From an uncultured Lactobacillus sp. (GTDB lineage Bacteria > Bacillota > Bacilli > Lactobacillales > Lactobacillaceae), in contig NZ_CANBCP010000001.1 of the NCBI RefSeq assembly GCF_947367085.1, positions 1 through 64,000 of the forward strand: DNA of 64,000 bases, written 5' to 3'. Position 1 is the stretch's first letter. Each line of letters begins with the position of its first letter. Below, one piece after another: positions 59,930 to 64,000 of this stretch. The position numbers were made by a program, and so were the translations under genes. The notes beneath the pieces are model-generated. The model made no database searches and had not been told where the DNA came from. It saw only the letters and a program-made list of their open reading frames with translations.

Positions 59930-60071
59930 AAATTCATAGTATTAAAGATCATTCATATTTTGATTTTGAGATTTGAATGATCTTTTTGTATAAAGGAGTT
60001 AAACAAAAATTCAATAAATACTTGCTAAAAGGGCGACTCTATGGTTAAATTAATAATTGCGTTGAGCAATT

Positions 60072-60144
60072 GCTGACTTAGCTCAGTTGGCAGAGCACGT
60101 CATTAGTAATGATGAGGTCGAAGGTTCGAATCCTTTAGTCAGCA
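60072..60144 (+). tRNA. tRNA-Thr (anticodon AGT)
   Basis: Cloverleaf read by eye: acceptor GCTGACT/AGTCAGC, D-arm GCTC..GAGC, anticodon loop TTAGTAA, T-arm GAAGG-TTCGAAT-CCTTT; no encoded CCA. Confidence 0.9.
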
Positions 60145-60166
60145 TTAGTTAGATTCATTTAATGTG

Positions 60167-60272: not shown

Positions 60273-60634
60273 CAAAGTAATTTTTTAAGTGGAATAAGAG
60301 TTGATATGGTGGGCTTTGAGTTCACCTTTTTGTGTTCTGTAAAAGTTATGCATAATATGAACGAGGGCATTGTTAATTAGTATTTAATTATTTTTGTAGA
60401 ACATAAATTAAATTTTCTATCTATTGATATATTAGAAAAAATTCTTTAAATGTTGGATCAAGCTGTCGAAGTGTAGATAAGATATTAGGTTGAAAATTAT
60501 GCTATAAATAAAATACATATATTACTGTTTAAAATAAAATGAAATAAAATTTAAAATAACTATTTACTTTCATAGTCATTAGTTGTATTATAATTAAAAA
60601 TATTAAAAAATAATAGAAAGGGCGGGTGATAATT

Positions 60635-60688
60635 ATGACTTTAGACGGCGATAGAGTAGGCTGGCGTAAAGGCTGCGGCTTACGTTAA
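60635..60688 (+). CDS. candidate RiPP/microcin-like precursor peptide, 17 aa: MTLDGDRVGWRKGCGLR
   Basis: ATG with upstream GGGCGGGTG RBS-like sequence, higher GC than flanks, ends 6 nt before a terminator hairpin, immediately upstream of a ThiF-like gene. Confidence 0.6.
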   Translation: MTLDGDRVGWRKGCGLR

Positions 60689-60694
60689 AGTTAG

Positions 60695-60736
60695 AAAATC
60701 GGTTAGGTCCTATTTTATAGGATTTAACCGATTTTT
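60695..60736 (+). terminator. hairpin terminator/attenuator between peptide ORF and ThiF gene
   Basis: AAAATCGGTTAggTCCTAtttTAGGAttTAACCGATTTTT. Confidence 0.85.
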
Positions 60737-60777
60737 AATTTTAATCATATTTATAAGTAAAAGCGAGGAGGAGCAAT

Positions 60778-61755
60778 ATGAGAAAGTTGAGAATAAAAAG
60801 GACATTACAGCCTTTAGTTGATGGCGATAAGATATTATTCGGTATAGGAAACGTGGGGCTTAGAAGAACTATCCCTAATAATCCTGAAAATATTGAATTG
60901 TTGAAATTCTTAAATGATGAAATACCTAGAGATCAAGTAAGACTTTCTGATGATCAGATAAAGAATAAAATTGATCAATTAAAGGATTTGGGAGTTCTGA
61001 CTACTAATACATATTCTGATGCTCCTAGGTATTCAAGAAATGAAACATTTTTTGAATGGATGGATATGTCTTCAAATATTAATCCATATAAATATCAAGA
61101 AAAGTTGTTTAAATCTAAGGTTGTAGTTTTGGGAATTGGTGGAATAGGTTGTGCTGTTGCTGAACACTTAATAAGAGCAGGTATAAATAAAATTAAATTG
61201 GTTGATTTTGATACAGTAGAGGAATCTAACTTAACTCGACAAACTACGTATTTTGAAGACGACATTGGGAAATCTAAATTAGATGCTTGCAAAAGATATC
61301 TCTTAAAAATTAATTCTGAAATCCACGTAGAGACAATTAAACAAAAAGTTTCTAAATATGAAGATTTAGAAAAAATAATTAATACAAAAGATTCATTAAT
61401 TGTAAATTCTATGGATAAACCTGCAGAATTAGATAACTGGGTTGATACCGTGTCAAATAAGTATAATATCCCAGTCGTTTTTGGAAGCTATGCAGCTACT
61501 GCTACAAATGTTTATCCTAAGACTCCAAATGTTTCGCTGAATTATAGTGATTTTTTAGGAAAGGAGCAAATTACTGAAGATTGTATTATAGATAATACTT
61601 TCCCAATGGGGACCCTATCTTCAGTGACTGCAGTAGCTGCGGGCTTTGTTAGCTATACAGCGATTATGATGTTGACAGGATTACGAATACCTAAAGAAGG
61701 TATTCAAATGGATTTTGACGGCTGGTCCATATATAAATTTCCAAATCAGAGGTGA
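60778..61755 (+). CDS. ThiF/MoeB/E1-like adenylyltransferase with N-terminal RRE-like domain (MccB/PaaA-type)
   Basis: VVVLGIGGIGCAVAEHLIRAGINKIKLVDFDTVEESNLTRQ nucleotide-binding motif; about 85-aa N-terminal extension resembling a peptide-clamp/RRE; AGGAGGAG RBS. Confidence 0.87.
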   Translation: MRKLRIKRTLQPLVDGDKILFGIGNVGLRRTIPNNPENIELLKFLNDEIPRDQVRLSDDQIKNKIDQLKDLGVLTTNTYSDAPRYSRNETFFEWMDMSSNINPYKYQEKLFKSKVVVLGIGGIGCAVAEHLIRAGINKIKLVDFDTVEESNLTRQTTYFEDDIGKSKLDACKRYLLKINSEIHVETIKQKVSKYEDLEKIINTKDSLIVNSMDKPAELDNWVDTVSNKYNIPVVFGSYAATATNVYPKTPNVSLNYSDFLGKEQITEDCIIDNTFPMGTLSSVTAVAAGFVSYTAIMMLTGLRIPKEGIQMDFDGWSIYKFPNQR

Positions 61756-61760
61756 GATAA

Positions 61761-63323
61761 ATGTTAAAAAAATGGATAAAAACGAACCCAGGTAGAATAT
61801 TAGCACTTATATTATTTTCTGTAGTATTGCAAATTTTTTCAACAACTAGTTATTATTTAGTAAATCCAATGCTCAATGCAATCATGGATGGAGAATTTCA
61901 ATTATTTATTATTATAATTATTAGTAAATTTGTTGTTGATCAGATTGCTAATGGAAGTTTAAGTTATGGTACTTATTTGTACGAAGTACAAACGCAGGAT
62001 TTTTACCATAGCTTAAGACAGCAAAACTTAAAGTTTTATGTTAAAAATCCATCAAATCTTAGTGATATGGAAAATGATTTAACTAGTAATTTAGATTTGC
62101 TTGATGAGAACTATTTTATGCAAGTATTTATTGCATTTAATAATTTTCTATATGTAGTATGTGTTTCTCTTGCCCTATTAAGTTATAACTGGATCCTGGT
62201 ATTTTATTCATTTTCTGTAGCAATTATTTCATTGATAGTACCAAAATTCTTTGAAAAATTTTCAACTAAAGCAACAAATCAAATTGCAAAATCTAATAGT
62301 AAGTATTTAGAAAATCTGTATCAATGGATAGTAGCATTAGATGAAGTTCGCCGATACAGAATAGGAAATCAGTTAGTTAGGAACACTAGTGACGTAGGAC
62401 AAAAGCTTGAAGAAAGTGAAATTAATCAGCAAAAGGTTATTACATTTTCTACGTTTTGCCAAAATTTAATTGAATTATTTGGAATTTTTGGTATTCCAGT
62501 GATTGCAGGTATATTATATTTTCAGAATAAAGTTCAATTTGGAACAATAGTTGCAGCTGGTTATTTAGCAAATGGAATATTTAGTTCTTTAGGTGAAGCG
62601 ATATCTGCATTAACTATTGCTCGTTCTACTCATGAGATTAGACAAGAATTAAATAAATATTTTAAAACTAAGTCAGCGTTGCCTATCAATAAGTTAAAAA
62701 CTATAAAAATTAAAAACGGAAAAGTAAAATTTAGCAATAATGATGTATTATCTTATAATTTTGAATTAAATTATGGAGATCATGTTTTGGTTACGGGTCC
62801 TAGTGGTAGTGGAAAATCCACGTTACTAAAAATAATTACAGGACAGCAAAAATTATCTTCTGGTACTATTAAATATTTTGATTTTGAGGATAAGCCTAAA
62901 AAATTCAATTTAAGTCAATTGGGGTATTTACCTCAAGAAAACATATTATTTCCAGGATCAATTTTAGAAAATATTACTATGTTTAATGATAAATTGGATG
63001 CAGAAGCAAAAAAAATAGTTAATGATGTCCAATTGACTAAAGATTTAAGTAAGTTCGATAAGGGAATATATACTAAAATTGATCCAAACAATATAACTTT
63101 GTCCGGCGGGCAAAAACAAAAGATATTTTTAGCTAGAGCTCTGGTACATCCCACTACATTTTTATTATTAGATGAGGCATTAAGTGCGATTGATCCAAAA
63201 ACTTCTACTTTAATTATAAAAAGATTACTAAAGGAAAAAACTGTATTACTTGTAGCTCATAACTTATCACCAAGTCAAAAGAAACTGTTTACAAAAGAGA
63301 TTCATTTATACGAGGAGGATTAA
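61761..63323 (+). CDS. ABC transporter, fused permease/ATPase half-transporter
   Basis: VTGPSGSGKSTLLKIITGQ, LSGGQKQKIFLARALV, LLLDEALSAIDP with N-terminal TM domain. Confidence 0.92.
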   Translation: MLKKWIKTNPGRILALILFSVVLQIFSTTSYYLVNPMLNAIMDGEFQLFIIIIISKFVVDQIANGSLSYGTYLYEVQTQDFYHSLRQQNLKFYVKNPSNLSDMENDLTSNLDLLDENYFMQVFIAFNNFLYVVCVSLALLSYNWILVFYSFSVAIISLIVPKFFEKFSTKATNQIAKSNSKYLENLYQWIVALDEVRRYRIGNQLVRNTSDVGQKLEESEINQQKVITFSTFCQNLIELFGIFGIPVIAGILYFQNKVQFGTIVAAGYLANGIFSSLGEAISALTIARSTHEIRQELNKYFKTKSALPINKLKTIKIKNGKVKFSNNDVLSYNFELNYGDHVLVTGPSGSGKSTLLKIITGQQKLSSGTIKYFDFEDKPKKFNLSQLGYLPQENILFPGSILENITMFNDKLDAEAKKIVNDVQLTKDLSKFDKGIYTKIDPNNITLSGGQKQKIFLARALVHPTTFLLLDEALSAIDPKTSTLIIKRLLKEKTVLLVAHNLSPSQKKLFTKEIHLYEED

Positions 63324-63324
63324 T

Positions 63325-64000
63325 ATGACAATTAGAACATTATTCAAAATTAATCCACTAAGGTTTATAGTTTCATTAATGCTTGAGGGAATATCTGCTA
63401 TGTTGGTAGTACTTGAGACATATTTTCTAACTATTCAGTTTGACAAAATAAAAATTCATGATTATCATGGCTTTTTCCTATTTGCTTTTTTACAAATTAT
63501 TAGTTTTATCTTAAGTAGTGGATTTAAGCAGCTAGGAAATTATCTGTGGACTGTTCAAGTACAGAATGGATTTCATCAAATTAGAAAAAATTTTCTAGAT
63601 AGTTTAGTAAAAAATAAGCAAAGATATCATCCTGATGATGTTCAGAATCAATTAGTTAAGAACTTAAAAATTGTAAAAGAGGGATATACAGATTCAATAA
63701 AAGATGCAGTATACCAAAGTGTTCTATTACTATTTATTACTACTACTTTGTTACAATTACAGTGGGAAATATTTATAATAGCTTTAATTTGGTCTTCTAT
63801 TCAATTGTATCTACCAAAGTTGTTTGAAAAGAAATTAGATATTGCTTATAGTAATTTATCAGAGCAAAATAAAAAGTATCTAAATATATTGAATAATTGG
63901 CTAATTGGCTTGAATGAAATTAGAAGATATACAGCTACAGCGTATTTATTTAAAATTCTGGGACACGCTGGTAAGAACGTTGAAAAGTCTGTTATTAGTA
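63325..64000 (+). CDS. second ABC half-transporter, truncated by window end
   Basis: Open frame from ATG 63325 after GAGGAGG: MTIRTLFKINPLRFIVSLMLEGISAMLVVLETYFLTIQF..., TM-domain-like, no stop before 64000. Confidence 0.85.
   Translation, partial: MTIRTLFKINPLRFIVSLMLEGISAMLVVLETYFLTIQFDKIKIHDYHGFFLFAFLQIISFILSSGFKQLGNYLWTVQVQNGFHQIRKNFLDSLVKNKQRYHPDDVQNQLVKNLKIVKEGYTDSIKDAVYQSVLLLFITTTLLQLQWEIFIIALIWSSIQLYLPKLFEKKLDIAYSNLSEQNKKYLNILNNWLIGLNEIRRYTATAYLFKILGHAGKNVEKSVIS

Follow-up and report, generated by a model that had tools for sequence, protein, structure and literature searches.

The right end of a 64,000-nt stretch of DNA from an uncultured Lactobacillus sp. (GCF_947367085.1, contig NZ_CANBCP010000001.1, positions 1-64,000; hereafter the window) carries a four-gene operon, consisting of a short precursor open reading frame (ORF), followed by a hairpin, a ThiF-like enzyme gene, and two ATP-binding cassette (ABC) half-transporter genes. 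It is proposed, with a probability of roughly 0.72, that this is a minimal operon for a ribosomally synthesized and post-translationally modified peptide (RiPP), in which the carboxylate of the C-terminal arginine is adenylated and then trapped, probably as a ring. All four elements lie where an earlier reading of the window (the original prediction) had placed them. The proposal is supported by a precursor ending that recurs beside the enzyme in relatives from other genera, by the similarity of the enzyme to the microcin C enzyme MccB, and by a natural deletion in Lactobacillus corticis.

A short precursor with a conserved C-terminus

The precursor MTLDGDRVGWRKGCGLR is encoded by 17 codons (60635-60688, stop included, forward strand, as are all window features given here), and its start is preceded by an extended Shine-Dalgarno (SD) sequence, GGTGAT. 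The genus, family, order, class, and Streptococcus were searched for orthologues of the enzyme, which are about 40-50% identical to it. Nine intact ones, the window enzyme included, come from Lactobacillus, other Lactobacillaceae, Streptococcus, and another Lactobacillales family; two loci, L097 with an incomplete gene and L040 with a broken one, were left out of this count. SD-preceded short ORFs were found directly 5' of the intact ThiF genes: METYSNAQWRDGNR (L004), MTTRQWRNGGR (L006), MTEVVELPGGWRWGKR (L037), MDFADLNGSNGHRVGGR (L038), MSSRLPAPKHSSLPPVGFRVGSR (L039), MTAEVVNRPGYRIGGR (L065), MTVVAVQTFPGHRVGGR (L066/L067), MSAVPYSFQGHRLGGR (L068, L093-L095), and MSAVPCSFQGHRLGGR (L096). These peptides are 11-23 residues long and share an ending of an aromatic residue or His, then Arg, x, Gly, x, Arg, and stop, which was scored as [WYFH]-R-x(1-3)-G-x-R-stop.

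This motif is present 5' of the enzyme gene in 9/9 intact loci and absent from all 4241 SD-preceded short ORFs of the 92 control loci, a test that shows contrast and not discovery, as the motif was derived from the very sequences scored. Judged on these counts, the contrast far exceeds the freedom gained by defining a motif on the same sequences. Shuffled upstream regions gave the motif 0-1 times per 1000 for each region, and in the whole window, both strands considered, it occurs in one SD-preceded short ORF out of 795. These comparisons indicate that the 17-codon ORF is a genuine gene, and the conservation of a short ORF beside ThiF homologues, which the original prediction had set as a check, was borne out.

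The hairpin between the precursor and the enzyme gene (60694-60736) has the features of an intrinsic terminator, with 20 pairs, a T-rich tail, and a free energy of -23.9 kcal/mol. Terminator-like sites number three in the region, compared to a mean of 0.5 in shuffled sequences, and a hairpin with a T-rich tail separates the two genes in all nine loci.

The ThiF-like enzyme and its relation to MccB

The enzyme gene (60778-61755) encodes a predicted peptide adenylyltransferase of 325 residues, which matches PF00899 with an E value of 2.4e-44. In a profile comparison with the Protein Data Bank (PDB), the best matches are MccB (7.7e-38) and then PaaA (1.3e-27), both above ThiF and MoeB. The AlphaFold model, built from 37 alignment rows, has a mean predicted local distance difference test (pLDDT) score of 93.4 and a predicted template modeling (pTM) score of 0.91. 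Its top Foldseek matches are MccB structures, over 333-349 columns with a template modeling score (TM-score) of about 0.8, and PaaA comes next. The MccB alignment spans the whole length and covers the N-terminal domain, with which MccB binds its peptide; this part of the window enzyme is modeled with high confidence as strands and helices. The N-terminus resembling a RiPP recognition element (RRE) and the GxGGxG loop, both named in the original prediction, are recovered, the latter at residues 119-124; the absence of CxxC pairs was likewise confirmed from the sequence.

The match to NCBIfam ThiF/MoeB models raises the question of whether the protein is a housekeeping activator of a sulphur carrier, next to which the short ORF lies by coincidence. 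This possibility, which the original prediction had named as one of its refutations, can be practically dismissed: all the NCBIfam scores are far under the curated cut-offs, CxxC pairs are absent, the N-terminal domain and the fold match MccB ahead of ThiF and MoeB, and the ORF is found at every one of the nine intact orthologues. The distribution is also patchy, since a survey of the genus found any similar protein in 26 of 75 genomes and the orthologue itself, with an identity of about 50% or higher, in only four of them, the window's own genome included. In maximum-likelihood trees, the window-group enzymes form one side of a branch with support of 100/98-99, apart from MccB and IndF, an enzyme of an indolylamide RiPP in Streptococcus. 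The window group has no CxxC pairs, whereas E. coli MccB and IndF both have them. The nearest neighbor in the trees is a group of enzymes accompanied by a peptidase-like gene, for which an HxxEH motif was read from the sequence.

The glycine loop, R154, K167, and D213 are invariant across the precursor-bearing loci; EnfB, the enzyme of enterofaecin, reportedly requires conserved Arg, Lys, and Asp residues. L005, the one orthologue that has no precursor, has lost G121, G122, D145, and R154, so that on this sequence evidence the loss of the substrate coincides with that of the ATP site. L005 and L032 (genome G002) keep a clade-specific N-terminal motif and are adjoined by flavoprotein-like genes; the enzyme there is decayed or repurposed.

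Attenuators have this layout as well, with a short ORF ahead of a terminator, and the ORF could encode a leader peptide that steers read-through of the hairpin, with the enzyme acting on another substrate. Such an arrangement seems highly improbable, as the motif is kept at the extreme C-terminus across genera while the remainder varies, and the ORF of L068 lies 382 nt from the enzyme gene yet still bears the motif. The MccB-like peptide-recognition domain of the enzyme and the lost ATP site of the precursor-less orthologue also argue against it.

Proposed modification of the C-terminal arginine

The sequence layout suggests that abundant precursor would be made from a short transcript ending at the hairpin, and that read-through would yield the enzyme and the exporters. 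The mcc operon has the same hairpin between the precursor and the enzyme gene, and a short monocistronic precursor mRNA is made from it (PMC6495379). The fold and the conserved residues are consistent with binding of the peptide by the N-terminal domain, followed by adenylation, with ATP and Mg, of the alpha-carboxylate of the invariant C-terminal Arg. The original prediction had listed D4, D6, C14, or the C-terminus as candidate sites. The first three are absent from relatives, and the peptides are variable upstream except for the aromatic-Arg pair. Because the Arg end and the Gly at position -2 are invariant and the three side chains are not conserved, the C-terminal carboxylate, within G-x-R, is the site expected from the sequences.

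The least certain step is the fate of the activated carboxyl group. ThiF-like RiPP enzymes act by carboxylate adenylation followed by attack of a nucleophile, and for EnfB and IndF the C-terminus is reported to be activated first and then trapped internally (PMC12150305; PMC12250964). Capture within the peptide, leading to a C-terminal ring, is the most likely outcome here. Three attacking groups are conceivable. The conserved Gly at -2 may supply its backbone nitrogen, in a manner comparable to EnfB; the C-terminal Arg may attack with its own guanidine, giving a delta-lactam; or the conserved Arg further upstream may do so with its guanidine. Activated arginine is known to yield a delta-lactam (PMC3597280). 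That the enzyme forms an arginine delta-lactam, or a macrocycle via the upstream Arg, is a tentative idea, which we hold to be rather unlikely; if true, such a closure would be a ThiF-type reaction without precedent in the literature surveyed, and it would explain why the precursors end only in Arg.

Alternatively, the adenosine monophosphate (AMP) may be kept on the product, as in microcin C. The operon would then encode a Trojan horse: the enzyme would leave the nucleotide attached to the last residue, and arginyl-tRNA synthetase would be inhibited by a processed product resembling arginyl-adenylate. The idea draws on MccB being the nearest relative in fold and sequence, on very short precursors with no evident leader, and on an operon in which a precursor/enzyme hairpin is combined with transporter genes. 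However, MccB chemistry requires the side-chain amide of Asn (formation of a succinimide, then of a P-N bond), and no precursor in the group ends in Asn; as the original prediction had remarked for the window peptide, the MccB rule does not apply, and all group precursors end in Arg. With the CxxC pair also missing and no additional tailoring gene adjoining the operon, we consider this outcome improbable, and intrapeptide trapping of the adenylated arginine remains the preferred reading.

Exporters and the role of the product

The first half-transporter (61761-63323) combines a membrane domain and an ATPase (PF00664, PF00005). The second (63325-64000) is cut by the end of the window and continues to contig position 64899, about 0.9 kb further on; the full protein matches PF00005 and PF00664. 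A paralogue of half-transporter 1, 40% identical, is encoded elsewhere in the same genome (G000:C78:4388-5947). The original prediction treated the paired ABC exporters as part of the system. They are predicted to be dedicated exporters in the window and are not a hallmark of the group, as each of the eight remaining loci with a precursor has one gene resembling the major facilitator superfamily (MFS) in place of the pair (the Pfam match is weak). Use of the ABC pair as a group marker was ruled out: many half-transporters of this family, with identities of about 31-41%, occur throughout Lactobacillus. Because such genes are widespread in the genus, the window pair was probably recruited. In the final step of the proposed mechanism, the ABC pair, or the single MFS-like exporter in relatives, would export the product and probably shield the producer.

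L. corticis (L003) offers a natural deletion of the producer genes. It retains the upstream region, the promoter-like site, the SD sequence, and precursor codons 1-6 with synonymous changes only, and its sequence then skips to enzyme codon 293-294, at a GCGAT common to both ends. A single deletion has removed the peptide core and the enzyme, and both ABC genes are intact. They share 91% DNA identity with those of the window, with ratios of nonsynonymous to synonymous substitution rates (dN/dS) of 0.08 for half-transporter 1 and 0.12 for half-transporter 2. Since the exporters persist where the producer genes are lost, a role in immunity is suggested. This remnant was the only match in a scan of genome contigs. 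A scan of viral contigs, a search that did not take in phages, gave no relatives; a plasmid search gave ThiF proteins that were all distant (identities of about 36% or lower) and served to place MccB and another group.

By analogy with known systems, the product is most likely antibacterial against related bacteria. The possibility that it is a modified quorum-sensing signal arises from Rgg-type regulators, which adjoin several relatives (Rgg_C 1.4e-41 in L068 and 2.1e-11 in L006). In these relatives the cassette runs in the order Rgg-like regulator, precursor, ThiF, exporter, in otherwise unrelated contexts with no other gene conserved; in L030 and L031 it lies amid unrelated housekeeping genes, with no further gene in common. 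A second pheromone-like ORF is, however, present in L006 and L067 (PapR-like in L067), so that some of these loci have a separate candidate signal. No regulator adjoins the operon in the window or in L. corticis, and L. corticis keeps the exporters without the producer. A signaling role is for these reasons unlikely. In Streptococcus, PapR-like pheromone candidates containing ...DPGPAN... adjoin ThiF genes at L067:1094-1228 and L073:626-763, and the one in L067 is adjoined by a helix-turn-helix (HTH) regulator.

Several points weigh against the proposed reading. The window peptide, with W-R-K-G-C-G-L-R, is two residues off the family spacing x-R-x-G-x-R. An aromatic side chain is unlikely as a universal nucleophile, as the relative L039 has Phe. 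The antibacterial role is argued from analogy and from the exporters retained in L. corticis, and the deletion there may be too recent for dN/dS to reflect selection after the loss.

Relation to known ThiF-like RiPP systems

ThiF-like RiPP enzymes already described include MccB, PaaA, GrcB, EnfB, and IndF (PMC12150305; PMC12250964). The window enzyme has an intact ATP site and an N-terminal recognition domain, and a conserved precursor is encoded beside all nine intact orthologues; the kind is known, and the clade belongs within it. The new subclass of the original prediction holds as a RiPP-type system with its own clade, and it falls among the enzymes described and does not form a new kind.

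The system resembles microcin C in the full-length fold with its peptide-binding N-terminus, the short precursor, the dedicated exporter, the hairpin between the precursor and the enzyme gene, and the conserved ATP-site residues R, K, and D. It differs in precursors that end in G-x-R instead of Asn and have 11-23 residues instead of 7, in the lack of CxxC pairs (the E. coli enzyme of L121 has two), and in its separate branch. The L121 locus itself (L121:2154-3304), on the 24-kb IncX1 plasmid found in the widely used reference strain E. coli ATCC 25922, encodes MRTGNAN and a ThiF protein and is a microcin C operon. The fold match to PaaA of pantocin A, over about 340 columns, is weaker than that to MccB, and PaaA has a longer precursor, in which it modifies internal Glu residues.

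EnfB of Enterococcus is also ThiF-like and has an RRE; it activates a C-terminal carboxylate, and ABC transporters and quorum-sensing regulators are reported nearby (PMC12250964); its WWIVI-type C-terminus and leader motif differ from the window group, from which it is set apart by the precursors alone. IndF (L092) acts on the precursor C-terminus, as is predicted for the window enzyme, and likewise occurs in lactic acid bacteria, and its precursor IndA has Trp near the C-terminus. It nevertheless belongs to another branch, has CxxC, and has a peptidase in the cluster, while window-group precursors do not end in NWYFI and have His, Tyr, or Phe in place of Trp in part of the group. GrcB, of the GRC thiolactone RiPPs, is ThiF-like and also found in a quorum-sensing context, but a C-terminal Cys and radical S-adenosylmethionine (SAM) partners, both absent from the window-group loci, are required there (PMC12250964).

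A text search of the literature for the motif returned nothing relevant. No clade with G-x-R precursors was found in the literature search, a provisional result in which the lactic acid bacteria survey of Wang et al. 2024 (ACS Omega), reportedly with eight precursor groups and the most likely place for a prior listing, lay outside the comparison. Every group of ThiF-like RiPP enzymes characterised so far has proved to form a different bond, and the window clade, with its own invariant G-x-R ending and no CxxC pairs, is a strong candidate for a further reaction. Precursors of 11-23 residues can be obtained synthetically, and the L. corticis deletion provides a natural handle on exporter immunity.

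Flanking sequences and other ThiF-RiPP loci

Upstream of the precursor, a promoter-like site (TTTACT, 17 nt, TATTAT; 60563-60591) matches the consensus weakly. The region has five such sites compared to 10 in shuffled sequences, and the site is weak taken alone; at the corresponding position, L. corticis has a stretch, TTTACTTT...TTGTATTATA, that closely resembles the promoter-like region of the window. The stretch common to the two is limited on the left by a tRNA-Thr gene (AGT; 60071-60145), which flanks the operon and is not part of it. The original prediction expected that further tailoring or immunity genes might lie past 64000. Inspection of the contig past this point showed none after half-transporter 2, and a converging ORF without known function and then an integrative element were found instead. 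This element (L002:7316-11897), directly 3' of the operon, has FtsK-like, replication, and integrase genes, as read from the sequences. The operon was considered as its cargo and this was rejected, as an attachment-site repeat of the tRNA-Thr end was sought and none found.

Other ThiF-RiPP groups were also met. The sister group of the window enzyme (L069, L042, L098), whose enzymes likewise have no CxxC, has basic precursors of the form MKIKK...H or N, and genes for a peptidase-like protein bearing HxxEH and for an MFS-like protein come next at two of these loci, L069 and L042. A second group with Arg-ending precursors, MSIKKIATPATVVEGR, MKITKVIAAASTVEGR, and MTLTKTTASAVEPSGR, comprises L101, L103, L104, and L043 (L043:1222-1354, with two tandem precursor copies); its enzymes have CxxC and form a clade of their own. 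An acidic residue exclusive to the two clades with Arg-ending precursors was sought and nothing clear was seen. A further group, L099, L071, and L122 (L122:2616-2801), has GSC-ending precursors such as MKKVSEVKVLAHEEKNGSC, which may give thiolactone-type products; two near-identical copies of the MKKVSEVKVLAHEEKNGSC precursor are present on a Lactiplantibacillus plantarum plasmid.

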